This document shows, piece by piece, positions 1,922 to 7,485 of a stretch of DNA of 36,088 nt. The notes beneath the pieces are model-generated. The model saw only the letters and a program-made list of their open reading frames with translations. It did no database searches and had not been told where the DNA came from. Each line of letters starts with the position of its first letter. Positions within the stretch are counted from its first letter, which is position 1. The DNA lies in NCBI GenBank assembly GCA_027451505.1, contig DAIDJD010000144.1, positions 1-36,088 on the forward strand, in the 5' to 3' direction. Source of the stretch: a candidate division FCPU426 bacterium. GTDB lineage: Bacteria; Oederibacteriota; JAJYGY01; DAIDJD01. The translations under genes and the position numbers were made by a program.

Positions 1922-2392
1922 TCAGCCGCAGGAGCCGGGCTCGGGGCGCGCGCCCAGCGAGTCCAAGGCCGTGAGCTTGTCGACGCGGCGCTGGTGCCGG
2001 CCGCCCTCGAAGGGGGTGGCCAGGAAGAGCTGGACCATCTCCTTGGAGATGGTCAGGGCCAGCAGGCGGCTGGGCAGCACCATCACGTGGGCGTCGTTGT
2101 GGGCCCGGCCCATGCGGGCGGTGTAGAGGTCGTGGCACAGGGCCGCGCGCACGCCCGGCACCTTGTTGGCGGCGATGCTCATGCCGATGCCGCTGCCGCA
2201 GATGAGCACGCCGAAGGCCGCGCCGCCGGAGGCCACGCGCTCGCCCAGGGCCCGGGCGAAGTCCGGGTAGTCGCTGGGCTGGCGGTCGTGGGCGCCCAGG
2301 TCGAGCACCTCGTGCCCCTCGGCCCTGAGGAAGGCGGCCATCTCCTGCTTGAAGTCGTACCCGGCGTGGTCGGTGGCGATGGCGAGCTGCAT
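1922..2392 (-). CDS. rpiB: Ribose-5-phosphate isomerase B
   Basis: [18 protein letters not shown]...[43 protein letters not shown]: RpiB/LacAB hallmark sequence. Confidence 0.96.
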
Positions 2393-2448
2393 GGGGTCCC
2401 CGAGCGAGGTCAGTAGCGGTAGGCCAGCGCCAGGCCCCCGGGGGCCGG

Positions 2449-3114
2449 CTACAGCGCCAGCCCGTGGGCGGCGTCCACGCGCAGGGCCGTCCCCCGGCAG
2501 AAGGCGATGTCCCAAAGCCAGGTGCCCAGGAAGCAGGCCGCCCCCACGCCGATGAGGGCCGCGGGCACTTGGCGGTCGGTGTCCGAGGTGTTGGGGTAGG
2601 CCTCCAGGTATCCGCCGAAGGCGCCCAGGACCACGCCGAAGACCTCGGCCCCGGCCAGGCCCACGAAGGAGCCGTAGTCCCCGCAGTAACGCAACCCCGA
2701 GCCGTGCAGCAGCACGCCGGGCCACAGCGACAACCTGAGGGCCTCCTGCGGATCGCGGGCCTCGATGATGCTGGTCACGGGCGCCGGATCCGGGTCCAGA
2801 TCGCCGCGCATCATGGCCAAGTCGCCGCTGGGCGGGCCGTCCACCGACGCCACCTCGGTCCAAGGGATGTTGAAGAGGGTCCCCTTGGCGTTGGAGACGG
2901 TGAGGAAGTAGCGGTCGTAGTCCACCAGGCGCAGCTGCGCCTCCTGGCCGTCCTTCAGGACGACCTTGTAGAGGGACCCGGCGGTGGGGACCGCGGAAAG
3001 GGCCCCCGCGGGTGCCGGGGCGGGACCGGCCGAGCCCCGACCCGCCAGCGGCAAAGCCAAGGCCGAAGCCAGAATCAGGACCAGCGCGCGCGCGCGCCGT
3101 TGGCTGGGATGCAT
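2449..3114 (-). CDS. Hypothetical exported/membrane protein
   Basis: Signal-peptide-like N-terminus [25 protein letters not shown], then a short beta-rich segment ([45 protein letters not shown]) and hydrophobic stretches. Confidence 0.7.
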
Positions 3115-3125
3115 GGACGCCTCCT

Positions 3126-4487
3126 TCATGCGGTGGGGGCCGCGCGGGGCGCGACGGCCCGATGGCCGATGTCCCGGCGGTACCGCATCCCCTCGAAACG
3201 GATCCTTTCGCAGGCGTGGTAGGCCCGCTCCAGGGCCGCGGGCAGGTCGGGGCCCCATGCGGTCACGTCGAGCACCCGGCCCCCCTGGGTCACCCAGCCC
3301 CCGTTGAGCCGGGACGTGCCGGCGTGGAAGACCATTTCTCCGTCGCCGGACCCATCGCCGGACCCGCCACCGGACCCATCGCCGAACCCATCGCCGAACC
3401 CATCGCCGAATCCGTCGCCGAATCCGTCGCCCAGCCCCTCGATGGGCGCGTCCTTGGAGGCGGTGAAGGGGTACCCATGGGAGGCCAGGACCACCGTGGC
3501 GCAGGCCCCCGGCTTCCAGGCCAGCGGCGCAACGGAGCCCAGGCGGCCCTCGGCGCAGGCCAGCAGCACGGGCAGCAGGTCGAAGTCCATGCGCGGCACC
3601 ACGGCCTGGGTTTCGGGATCCCCGAAGCGCACGTTGTACTCCACCACCTTGGGGCCGGACGGGGTGAGCATGAGGCCGACATACAGGCAGCCCCTGAAGT
3701 CCAACCCCTCGCGCGCCAGGCCCGCCAGGGTGGGGGAAAGGATCTCCTCCCAGACCCGGTTCATGGTCCCGGCGTCCAGGGCCGGGGCCGGGCTGTAGGC
3801 GCCCATGCCGCCGGTGTTGGGCCCCCGATCTCCCTCCTCGAGGCGTTTGTGGTCCTGGGCCGAGGCCATGGGCCTGAGGACGCGCCCGTCGCAGAAGCAC
3901 AGCAGCGAGGCCTCCTCGCCGGGCAGGAACTCCTCGACCAGCACCGCGGCCCCGGCCTCCCCGAAGGCGCGCGCCTCCAGGCAGCTGAACAGGGCGTCCT
4001 CGACCTCGGAGCGGGTGGCGCAGATCGTCACGCCCTTGCCGGCGGCCAGGCCGTCGGCCTTGACCACGACGGGCAGGCTCAGCGTGGCCGCGAAGGCCAG
4101 GGCCTGGTCCCGGGAGGTGAACGATTCGGCGCGGGCCGTGGCCACCCCGTGGGCGGCCATGAAACGCTTGGCGAAGCCCTTGCTGGACTCCAGGCGGGCC
4201 GCTTCCTTCCCCGGCCCGAAGACCGGGATGGAGGCCGCCCTCAGGGCGTCGGCCAATCCGGCGGCCAAGGGGCCCTCGGGCCCCACCACCACCAGCTCCA
4301 CGGAACGCAGACGGCAGGCCTGGACCACCGCCTGGGCGTCGGAGACGTCCACGGCGACGGGCTCGCCCAGGGACGCCAGGGCCGCCCCGCCCGGAGCCAC
4401 GAACAGCCGCCCCAGCAGCGGGCTTTGCCGGATCTTCCAGGCCAAGGCGTGCTCGCGGCCGCCGGATCCGATGAGGAGGACGTTCAT
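3126..4487 (-). CDS. purD: Phosphoribosylamine-glycine ligase (GARS)
   Basis: MNVLLIGSGGREHALAWKI...VVGPEGPLAAGLADAL...GPNTGGMGAYSPAP...VEYNVRFGDPETQ. C-terminal domain carries a GDGF/GDGS repeat insertion. Confidence 0.97.
   Translation of the reverse strand: MNVLLIGSGGREHALAWKIRQSPLLGRLFVAPGGAALASLGEPVAVDVSDAQAVVQACRLRSVELVVVGPEGPLAAGLADALRAASIPVFGPGKEAARLESSKGFAKRFMAAHGVATARAESFTSRDQALAFAATLSLPVVVKADGLAAGKGVTICATRSEVEDALFSCLEARAFGEAGAAVLVEEFLPGEEASLLCFCDGRVLRPMASAQDHKRLEEGDRGPNTGGMGAYSPAPALDAGTMNRVWEEILSPTLAGLAREGLDFRGCLYVGLMLTPSGPKVVEYNVRFGDPETQAVVPRMDFDLLPVLLACAEGRLGSVAPLAWKPGACATVVLASHGYPFTASKDAPIEGLGDGFGDGFGDGFGDGFGDGSGGGSGDGSGDGEMVFHAGTSRLNGGWVTQGGRVLDVTAWGPDLPAALERAYHACERIRFEGMRYRRDIGHRAVAPRAAPTA
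3336..3431. repeat. 12-bp tandem repeat, 8 units, in frame within purD
   Basis: Minus-strand units GGCGACGGATTC x2, GGCGATGGGTTC x2, GGCGATGGGTCC, GGTGGCGGGTCC, GGCGATGGGTCC, GGCGACGGAGAA, encoding GDGF x4, GDGS, GGGS, GDGS, GDGE. Confidence 0.95.
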
Positions 4488-4496
4488 GGCCGCCCG

Positions 4497-6071
4497 TTAA
4501 TGGAGGAAGTGGCGCATGCCGGTGAACACCATGGCCATGCCGGCCTCGTCGGCCGCGGCCACGGACCGCGCGTCGTTGACCGAACCGCCGGGTTGGATCA
4601 CCGCGGTGACCCCCGCGGCCGCGGCCGCGCGCGGTCCGTCGTCGAAGGGGAAGAAGGCGTCGGAGGCCAGCACCGAGCCCCGCGCCCGCTCCCCGGCCGC
4701 CTGGACCGCCACGGCCACCGCGCCCACGCGGCTGGTCTGTCCCGGCCCCACGCCCACGGTGGCGCCGCCCTTGGCCAGCACGATGGCGTTGCTCTTGACC
4801 CGGGCGGCCACCCGCCAGGCGAAGAGCAGGTCCTCCCATTCGGCTTCGGTGGGCGCGCGCCGGGTGACCACCCGGCAGCGGCCCCGGTCCACGCGCTCCT
4901 CGTCCGGGCTCTGCAGCAGCAGGCCCCCGGCGACCTTCTTCATGGACCAGGCCTCGTACCCGAGCCCCGGGGCCGGACGGGAGGGGGCCGCCGGGGAGGC
5001 GATGCGCATCACCCTCAGGTTCTTCTTGGCGCGCAGCGCCTCCAGGGCCCCGGGCGTGAACTCCGGGGCGACCAGGCACTCCAGGAAGGTCGTGCCGATG
5101 CGCTCCACGAACCCCTCGTCCACGGCGCGGTTGCAGGCGACAATGCCGCTGAAGGCGCTCACCGGGTCGGAATCGAAGGCCTTCTGGTAGGCGGTGGCGG
5201 CGTCCCCGGCCACGGCCGCGCCGCAGGGGTTGGCGTGCTTGACCACGGCCACGGCCGGCTCGGGGAAGCCCCGCACCACGCCCAGGGCCGCGTCCAGGTC
5301 GGCGATGTTGTTGTAGCTGAGTTCCTTGCCCTGGATCTGCTCGGCCCGCGCCAGGGTGTCCCCGCCCGCGCCCGGCTGGGCGTAGAAGGCGGCCTTCTGG
5401 TGGGGGTTCTCGCCGTAGCGCAGGTCCTGGACCTTGTCGAAGGCCAGGTTCAGGCGCCCCGGGAAGGCGCCCGCCTTGCCCAGGCGCGCGGCCAGGTAGG
5501 CGTGCACGCAGCGGTCGAACTCGGCGGTGTGGGCGAAGGCCTCGACCACCAGGGCCTCCAGGGTGGCCTCGGAAAGCGTGAACCCGGAGGCGCGCAGCTC
5601 CTCCAGGACCGGGGCGTAGCCCTCCGGGGAGGTCAGCACGGCCACGCTGCGGAAGTTCTTGGCGCCCGAGCGGATCATGGAGGGACCGCCGATATCGATG
5701 TTCTCCACCGCCCGTTCCAGGGTGCAGGCCGGGTCGGCCACGGCCTTCTGGAAGGGGTAGAGGTTCACCACCACCATGTCGATCGGGGCGATGCCGTGGC
5801 GGGCCACGGTCTCGAGGTGCTCGGGGTTGTCGCGCAGGTGCAGCAGGCCCCCGTGGATGACCGGATGCAGGGTCTTGACCCGGCCGTCGAGCATCTCCGG
5901 GAAGCCGGTGTGTTCGCTGATGTCCTTGACGGCCAGGCCCGCCTCGCGCAGCGCCTTGGCCGTTCCCCCGGTGGAGATGAGCTCCACCCCCCCCTCGGAG
6001 AGGCCGCGGGCGAATTCCGCCAGCCCGGTCTTGTCCGTCACCGAAAGCAATGCCCTTCGCACCTTCACCAA
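4497..6071 (-). CDS. purH: Bifunctional AICAR transformylase / IMP cyclohydrolase
   Basis: VKVRRALLSVTDKTGLAEFARGLSEGGVELISTGGTAKALREAG...; RYGENPHQKAAFY; KHANPCGAAV. Likely TTG start at 6069-6071, after a GGAG Shine-Dalgarno (the ORF track extends to 6143). Confidence 0.96.
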   Translation of the reverse strand: MVKVRRALLSVTDKTGLAEFARGLSEGGVELISTGGTAKALREAGLAVKDISEHTGFPEMLDGRVKTLHPVIHGGLLHLRDNPEHLETVARHGIAPIDMVVVNLYPFQKAVADPACTLERAVENIDIGGPSMIRSGAKNFRSVAVLTSPEGYAPVLEELRASGFTLSEATLEALVVEAFAHTAEFDRCVHAYLAARLGKAGAFPGRLNLAFDKVQDLRYGENPHQKAAFYAQPGAGGDTLARAEQIQGKELSYNNIADLDAALGVVRGFPEPAVAVVKHANPCGAAVAGDAATAYQKAFDSDPVSAFSGIVACNRAVDEGFVERIGTTFLECLVAPEFTPGALEALRAKKNLRVMRIASPAAPSRPAPGLGYEAWSMKKVAGGLLLQSPDEERVDRGRCRVVTRRAPTEAEWEDLLFAWRVAARVKSNAIVLAKGGATVGVGPGQTSRVGAVAVAVQAAGERARGSVLASDAFFPFDDGPRAAAAAGVTAVIQPGGSVNDARSVAAADEAGMAMVFTGMRHFLH

Positions 6072-6091
6072 CGAATACTCCGCATCAAGTT

Positions 6092-6121
6092 GGAAAAATG
6101 TCCCGGACGCCGCGTCCCGGG
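6092..6121 (-). terminator. Intrinsic-terminator-like hairpin between purN and purH
   Basis: Minus strand CCCGGgACGCGGCGTCCGGG followed by ACATTTTTCC. Confidence 0.45.
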
Positions 6122-6143
6122 CCCTTTCCGGGGGGCGGTCCAA

Positions 6144-6162
6144 GGGGCGGAAATGCCGCCCC
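6144..6162 (-). other. Perfect GC-rich hairpin after purN
   Basis: GGGGCGG-N5-CCGCCCC, 7-bp perfect stem just downstream of the purN stop. Confidence 0.5.
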
Positions 6163-6172
6163 CCTTAGGGTA

Positions 6173-6757
6173 TCAGGCTTCGCACACGGCGCGCAAGGCC
6201 CGGGGATAAAGGGCGTGCTCGGCCTCCAGCACCCGGGCGGCCAGGCTGGCGGCGTCGTCCCCGGGCAGCACCGGGACGCGGGCCTGGGCCACCACCGAAC
6301 CCGCGTCGACCTCCTCGGTGACCCAGTGCACCGTGGCCCCGCTTTCGCGCTCCCCGGCCCGCAGCACGGCCTCGTGGACCTTGAGCCCGTGCATGCCCGG
6401 CCCACCGAACTTCGGCAGAAGGGAGGGGTGGATGTTGAGTGTCCGGCCGGCGTAGGCCCGGACGAAGGCCGGGGTGAGGATGCGCGTGTATCCGGCCAGG
6501 CACAGGAGTTCGGCCCCGGCAGCGCGCAGGACGCCGAGGACCTCGGCGTCGAAGGCCTCCCGCGTCGGATAGGCGCGGTGGTCCCGCGCCTCGACGGGCA
6601 CGCCGTAGGCCGCGGCCCGCCCGAGCGCCCCGGCGCCGGGACGGTTGCTGAAGACCAGCACGGCCTGGGCCGGGAACCCGGGCGCGGCCATGGCCTCCAG
6701 CAGGGCCTGGGCGTTGGAGCCCCCCCCGCTGGCCAGGATGGCCACCCGGCGCCTCAC
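6173..6757 (-). CDS. purN: Phosphoribosylglycinamide formyltransferase (folate-dependent)
   Basis: VRRRVAILASGGGSNAQALLEAM...NIHPSLLPKFGGPGMHGLKVHEAVLRAGERESGATVHWVTEEVDAG; GTG start overlaps the upstream TGA by 4 nt. Confidence 0.96.
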   Translation of the reverse strand: MRRRVAILASGGGSNAQALLEAMAAPGFPAQAVLVFSNRPGAGALGRAAAYGVPVEARDHRAYPTREAFDAEVLGVLRAAGAELLCLAGYTRILTPAFVRAYAGRTLNIHPSLLPKFGGPGMHGLKVHEAVLRAGERESGATVHWVTEEVDAGSVVAQARVPVLPGDDAASLAARVLEAEHALYPRALRAVCEA

Positions 6758-7485
6758 GCCGCGGACCCGGAATAGCCGAACTCGCGCCGGAGGAGCACGG
6801 CCCATCCGGCCCCCAGGCAGGCGGCGCAGGAGAGCGCGTTGAAGGCCAGGCTCCATGCGGGGTCGCCCCGCAGCCCGGGCAGGAGCGCGCGCAGGCCCCA
6901 GCCCGCGGCCAGGGCCAGGGGCTCCAGTCCCCGGGAGGTCCCCCAGACCTCGAGCAGGCCCAGGCCGGCCGCGGCCAGGCACAGGGCCCCCAATTCCCCG
7001 AGCCCGGTGGGCAGGGCCGAGAACAGCGCCACCGCCGCGGCCAGGGCCAGGGCCTGGAGCGCCTGGGCCGCGGGCACCAGAAGGCCGCCGGAGGCGTAGA
7101 AGGCGGGGCCCTCCTTGGCCAGGACCACCCCGTGGCAGAAGGCCAGGAAGCCCAGCAGAAGGGTCGCCAGGGCCGCCCACTTGGCCAGCAGGTAGCCGCC
7201 GCGGGGCAGGGGCCGGCACAGGGCCAGGGCCAGGGAACCCGAGGCCGCCTCCCCGCGGATCAGCCCCAGGCCCAGGAGCCAGCCCAAAGGGGGAAGCAGA
7301 AGGTCCCCGGCCCAGGCCAGGCCGGAGGGGCTCAGCGCCGAGGGGGCCCCGTTGATCCACACGTGGGCGGCCCCGCTCAGCGCGCCGTAGGCGCCCAGGG
7401 CCGCGGCCGCGCCCAGGGCCAGGCGCCCGGGGGAGGAGGCGAAGCGGCGCAGGGTGCTGAGGTAGACCTCCCTAAGAGCCTGCAC
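6754..7485 (-). CDS. ABC-2 type transporter permease
   Basis: Polytopic hydrophobic protein VQALREVYLSTLRRFASSPGRLALG..., directly downstream of and overlapping an ABC ATPase gene; GTG start at 7483-7485. Confidence 0.8.
   Translation of the reverse strand: MQALREVYLSTLRRFASSPGRLALGAAAALGAYGALSGAAHVWINGAPSALSPSGLAWAGDLLLPPLGWLLGLGLIRGEAASGSLALALCRPLPRGGYLLAKWAALATLLLGFLAFCHGVVLAKEGPAFYASGGLLVPAAQALQALALAAAVALFSALPTGLGELGALCLAAAGLGLLEVWGTSRGLEPLALAAGWGLRALLPGLRGDPAWSLAFNALSCAACLGAGWAVLLRREFGYSGSAA

Follow-up and report, generated by a model that had tools for sequence, protein, structure and literature searches.

How does an enzyme of purine synthesis come to carry a tandem repeat inside its C-terminal domain, and does the repeat serve the enzyme or is it simply tolerated? 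We addressed this question for purD in a 36,088-nucleotide stretch (the window; contig DAIDJD010000144.1, positions 1 to 36,088) from a candidate division FCPU426 bacterium, combining a reading of the array itself with comparisons to other PurD proteins, structure prediction and a census of tandem repeats in the genome.

The repeat array and its host enzyme

The purD gene (3126–4487, minus strand) is intact and encodes a 453-residue phosphoribosylamine–glycine ligase (GAR synthetase), as identified with NCBIfam and Pfam. The protein scores 466 bits against the TIGR00877 equivalog model (cut-off 288), placing it within the PurD family, and carries the Pfam domains GARS_N, GARS_A and GARS_C; the repeat cuts the beginning of GARS_C off from the rest, so that the match does not start until profile position 31. 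The reading frame holds no stop, and both the ATP-grasp and C-terminal domains are in place. Of the 83 columns with at least 97% conservation across 109 homologues, PurD keeps 81, and it thus looks functional, suggesting from its sequence that it has probably retained activity. It is the sole PurD in the genome, the remaining matches being weak ATP-grasp relatives; as the gene is also intact, a pseudogene or a second PurD copy was ruled out. A PurH-like reading frame (IMP cyclohydrolase/AICAR transformylase, identified from its translation; 4497–6143, minus strand) lies 9 bp upstream, and together the two probably form a purine gene cluster. Downstream of purD is an RpiB-like reading frame (1922–2392, minus strand), also identified from its translation, and between them lies a small reading frame (2449–3116, minus strand) whose product looks secreted or membrane-bound. 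A search for structured RNA across 2400–6800 gave no Rfam match.

The array (3336–3431, minus strand) consists of eight 12-bp units, all in the PurD reading frame and arranged as GGCGACGGATTC twice, GGCGATGGGTTC twice, GGCGATGGGTCC, GGTGGCGGGTCC, GGCGATGGGTCC and GGCGACGGAGAA, which together encode (GDGF)4-GDGS-GGGS-GDGS-GDGE. The last unit, GGCGACGGAGAA (GDGE; 3336–3347, minus strand), stands directly before MVFHAGT and, judging from the tabulated units, is possibly the seed of the array. Tandem Repeats Finder reported a period of 12 at 3343–3431 (7.4 copies, 88% matches, 0 indels) and gave a period-24 reading at 3340–3431 a score of 121; triplet shuffles of DNA from this genome, 2.17 Mb in all, reached 73 at most. 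The array therefore exceeds chance, has a period divisible by 3 and lies within a gene, confirming the in-frame 12-bp minisatellite that a preliminary description had reported in PurD from unit reading. In a whole-genome search, no further copies of the purD repeat were found elsewhere, making this a single-locus array.

That description had also read a gradient across the units as a record of stepwise duplication. Two pairs of adjacent units are identical, and the similarity between neighbours is matched or bettered by 1600 of the 40320 possible orderings (4%); the gradient thus has modest support, since 96% of orderings place less similar units side by side. Stepwise duplication is likewise supported as the natural origin of an in-frame 12-bp array, with unit order contributing modestly.

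Loop length and predicted structure in PurD

The short loop that had been proposed for other PurD proteins was recovered by alignment: IEGL and VFHAG are separated by 33 residues in this protein and by 8–14, mostly 9 or 10, in 109 other PurDs, a net gain over the normal spacer of about 24 residues, or six units. The nearest relative compared, G001 from the same order, shares 64% identity across the first 355 residues; its spacer, EGWNEEDGL, is nine residues long. In 39 other genomes of the phylum the GARS_C match starts at position 1 or 2 and contains no long insert. The homologue alignment that had been suggested as a check therefore places the long repeat segment in this PurD and finds it absent from relatives, including the one of the same order.

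Beyond the phylum, nearly all complete PurD matches in three more phyla (35, 120 and 60 matching genomes) were of normal length, those of G300 and G305 being about 13 residues longer. One genome of another phylum (G172; L220:1963–2100) carries a Q/P/K-rich insert at the same PurD loop, ISGLEKNKQSNKQSKTQPRAKSQPQPQPQPQSSTPQGASIIFHAGT, with a 36-residue spacer and CAACCA repeats, whereas its genus mate G171 has a 12-residue spacer, IHGLEKSQPDSQATSLIFHAGT, without the insert. The G172 insert thus appears to have arisen independently at the same loop and would point to a permissive site that tolerates slippage products. Taken with the survey of further phyla, it indicates that long low-complexity inserts of unrelated composition are tolerated at this site, though rarely; large inserts are rare among the approximately 250 PurD C-domains examined, and the loop therefore does not expand freely. 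In a further genome (G196), purD is split between two contigs (C118 and C218; end of L222 and start of L223) exactly at the PurD loop, a break perhaps caused by an unassembled repeat.

An AlphaFold2 model built from 36 aligned sequences had a mean pLDDT of 90.3, with most of the core above 90. Residues 361–381, inside the repeat, fell below 50, and the repeat is therefore predicted to form a disordered loop, which probably lies at the protein surface. Foldseek matched the model to solved PurDs with TM scores of up to 0.95, normalised to target length.

Genomic context and origin of the expansion

A low-complexity repeat in a core metabolic enzyme had been put forward as unusual, and to place it in context we counted arrays scoring at least 50 in 722 kb of the 2.36-Mb genome. 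The census returned 97 arrays. Per 100 kb this amounts to 13.4, compared with 2.5 in triplet shuffles and 16.0 in a 118-kb sample from the same-order relative. The period was divisible by 3 in 86 of the 97 arrays and in all 27 of those scoring at least 80, of which 10 sit at or no more than 300 bp from a contig end. Many arrays code for Thr/Pro-rich linkers in proteins that are probably secreted, for example ones with type IX sorting domains, kumamolisin prodomains or rhamnogalacturonan lyase-like domains. Thr/Pro-rich arrays were seen at L218:16573–16870, L207:1–345, L213:1–198 and L212:13819–14022 (TATPTVTLTD, PTAVPTAV, SPTPSA); several contigs end in such minisatellites, which therefore probably fragment the assembly. 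One array (L138:2395–2472) forms the Lys/Ala/Gly-rich C-terminal tail of a CTC-type ribosomal protein L25. The ten repeat proteins scanned against Pfam included no other cytosolic biosynthetic enzyme, so PurD is an uncommon host of a common kind of array. The claim of unusualness accordingly holds for the host enzyme and is weakened for the array, which is typical of a genome rich in in-frame minisatellites.

Against this background, the insert is most likely a tolerated slippage product rather than a new functional part. We consider it highly probable that replication slippage or unequal recombination expanded a short Gly/Asp stretch in a variable loop, and that the result is nearly neutral and tolerated; both the slippage mechanism and the near-neutrality are what we infer from the array and its setting. 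Expansion would have started from a short glycine/aspartate-rich stretch in the C-terminal domain of PurD, within a loop that naturally varies in length, and slippage or unequal recombination would have taken it from about two 12-bp units to eight, the 12-bp period maintaining the reading frame along the way. Because the Gly/Asp/Ser/Phe product is flexible, the folded enzyme could accommodate it as a disordered loop, and the expansion would owe its persistence to near-neutrality in a lineage where in-frame minisatellites are generally abundant in the genomes. The normal spacer range of 8–14 residues would likewise argue for tolerated expansion.

One feature of the units counts against neutral expansion. 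The Asp-Gly core is retained in seven of the eight units even though third positions differ (GAC/GAT, GGA/GGG), a pattern that could reflect weak selection on the peptide, although a set of eight is too small to decide. This retention despite synonymous change, together with Asp residues spaced regularly every four positions, would also suit a selected functional element that binds Ca2+, a different cation or a partner and tunes the activity or assembly of PurD. We regard such an element as improbable: Pfam detected no Ca-binding repeat family in PurD at E 0.001, the tetrapeptide unit is neither the RTX nonapeptide nor a DxDxDG loop, the order-level relative G001 lacks the repeat, the segment is predicted to be disordered, and the sole other clear large insert at the loop, the Q/P/K-rich one of G172, is compositionally unrelated. 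The metal- or nucleotide-binding role suggested in the preliminary description is, on these grounds, unsupported.

A variable-number repeat could also serve as a tuning switch, in which units gained or lost would, with no frameshift, give strains loops of different length and enzymes of different properties. Tandem units with two identical adjacent pairs, a period that is always in frame and a repeat-rich genome would all fit, but the units have diverged from each other, suggesting slow rather than rapid turnover, and in-frame steps are unable to turn the gene off; we judge a switch of this kind distinctly unlikely. It is very unlikely that low-complexity inserts arise independently and repeatedly at the PurD loop of bacteria and tune the enzyme, with this array changing length from strain to strain and acting as an in-frame rheostat on purine synthesis. 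Finally, although this metagenome-assembled genome is fragmented (252 contigs) and several contigs end in repeats, an assembly artefact is hardly credible for an array of just 96 bp that lies mid-contig with distinguishable units and an exact frame, as short-read assembly tends to collapse repeats and would not be expected to create diverged units.

Comparison with known systems

With the insert read as a tolerated slippage product, several known systems offer comparisons. RTX and other Ca-binding Asp-Gly repeats are G- and D-rich and tandem, as is the PurD array; however, RTX repeats follow the nonapeptide GGxGxDxUx, whereas the PurD unit has four residues, the wrong motif and no Pfam match and sits in a cytosolic enzyme, which places it outside the RTX class. 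Rickettsia palindromic elements are in-frame insertions in protein genes whose peptides are tolerated in bacterial proteins (cited in PMC3733652). They resemble the PurD case in that an extra peptide is tolerated inside probably functional proteins; they are dispersed and palindromic, in contrast to the tandem, single-locus purD array, which is unique in its genome.

Compared with bacterial PurD or GAR synthetase in general (TIGR00877; solved structures 1gso, 2xcl, 2yrw and 3lp8), the domains, near-invariant residues and predicted fold are alike, and the difference lies in the spacer, which here has 33 residues with a tandem repeat and 8–14 residues in the others. In the literature searched, we found no relevant paper describing purD tandem repeats or insertions into GAR synthetase loops. 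The array could act as a candidate strain or typing marker for this uncultured lineage, and it indicates no new mechanism.

In-frame intragenic repeats and variable segments are well known in bacteria, as in the in-frame variable segments of Staphylococcus aureus surface-protein genes (PMC2884548). Like these bacterial intragenic minisatellites and variable-number tandem repeats, the purD array consists of repeated in-frame coding units; unlike them, it is hosted by a cytosolic biosynthetic enzyme and is the array of one genome. The purD array is a fresh example of this known phenomenon, and a clean one: slippage can lengthen a loop of a single-copy core enzyme while its conserved residues and predicted fold stay unchanged.
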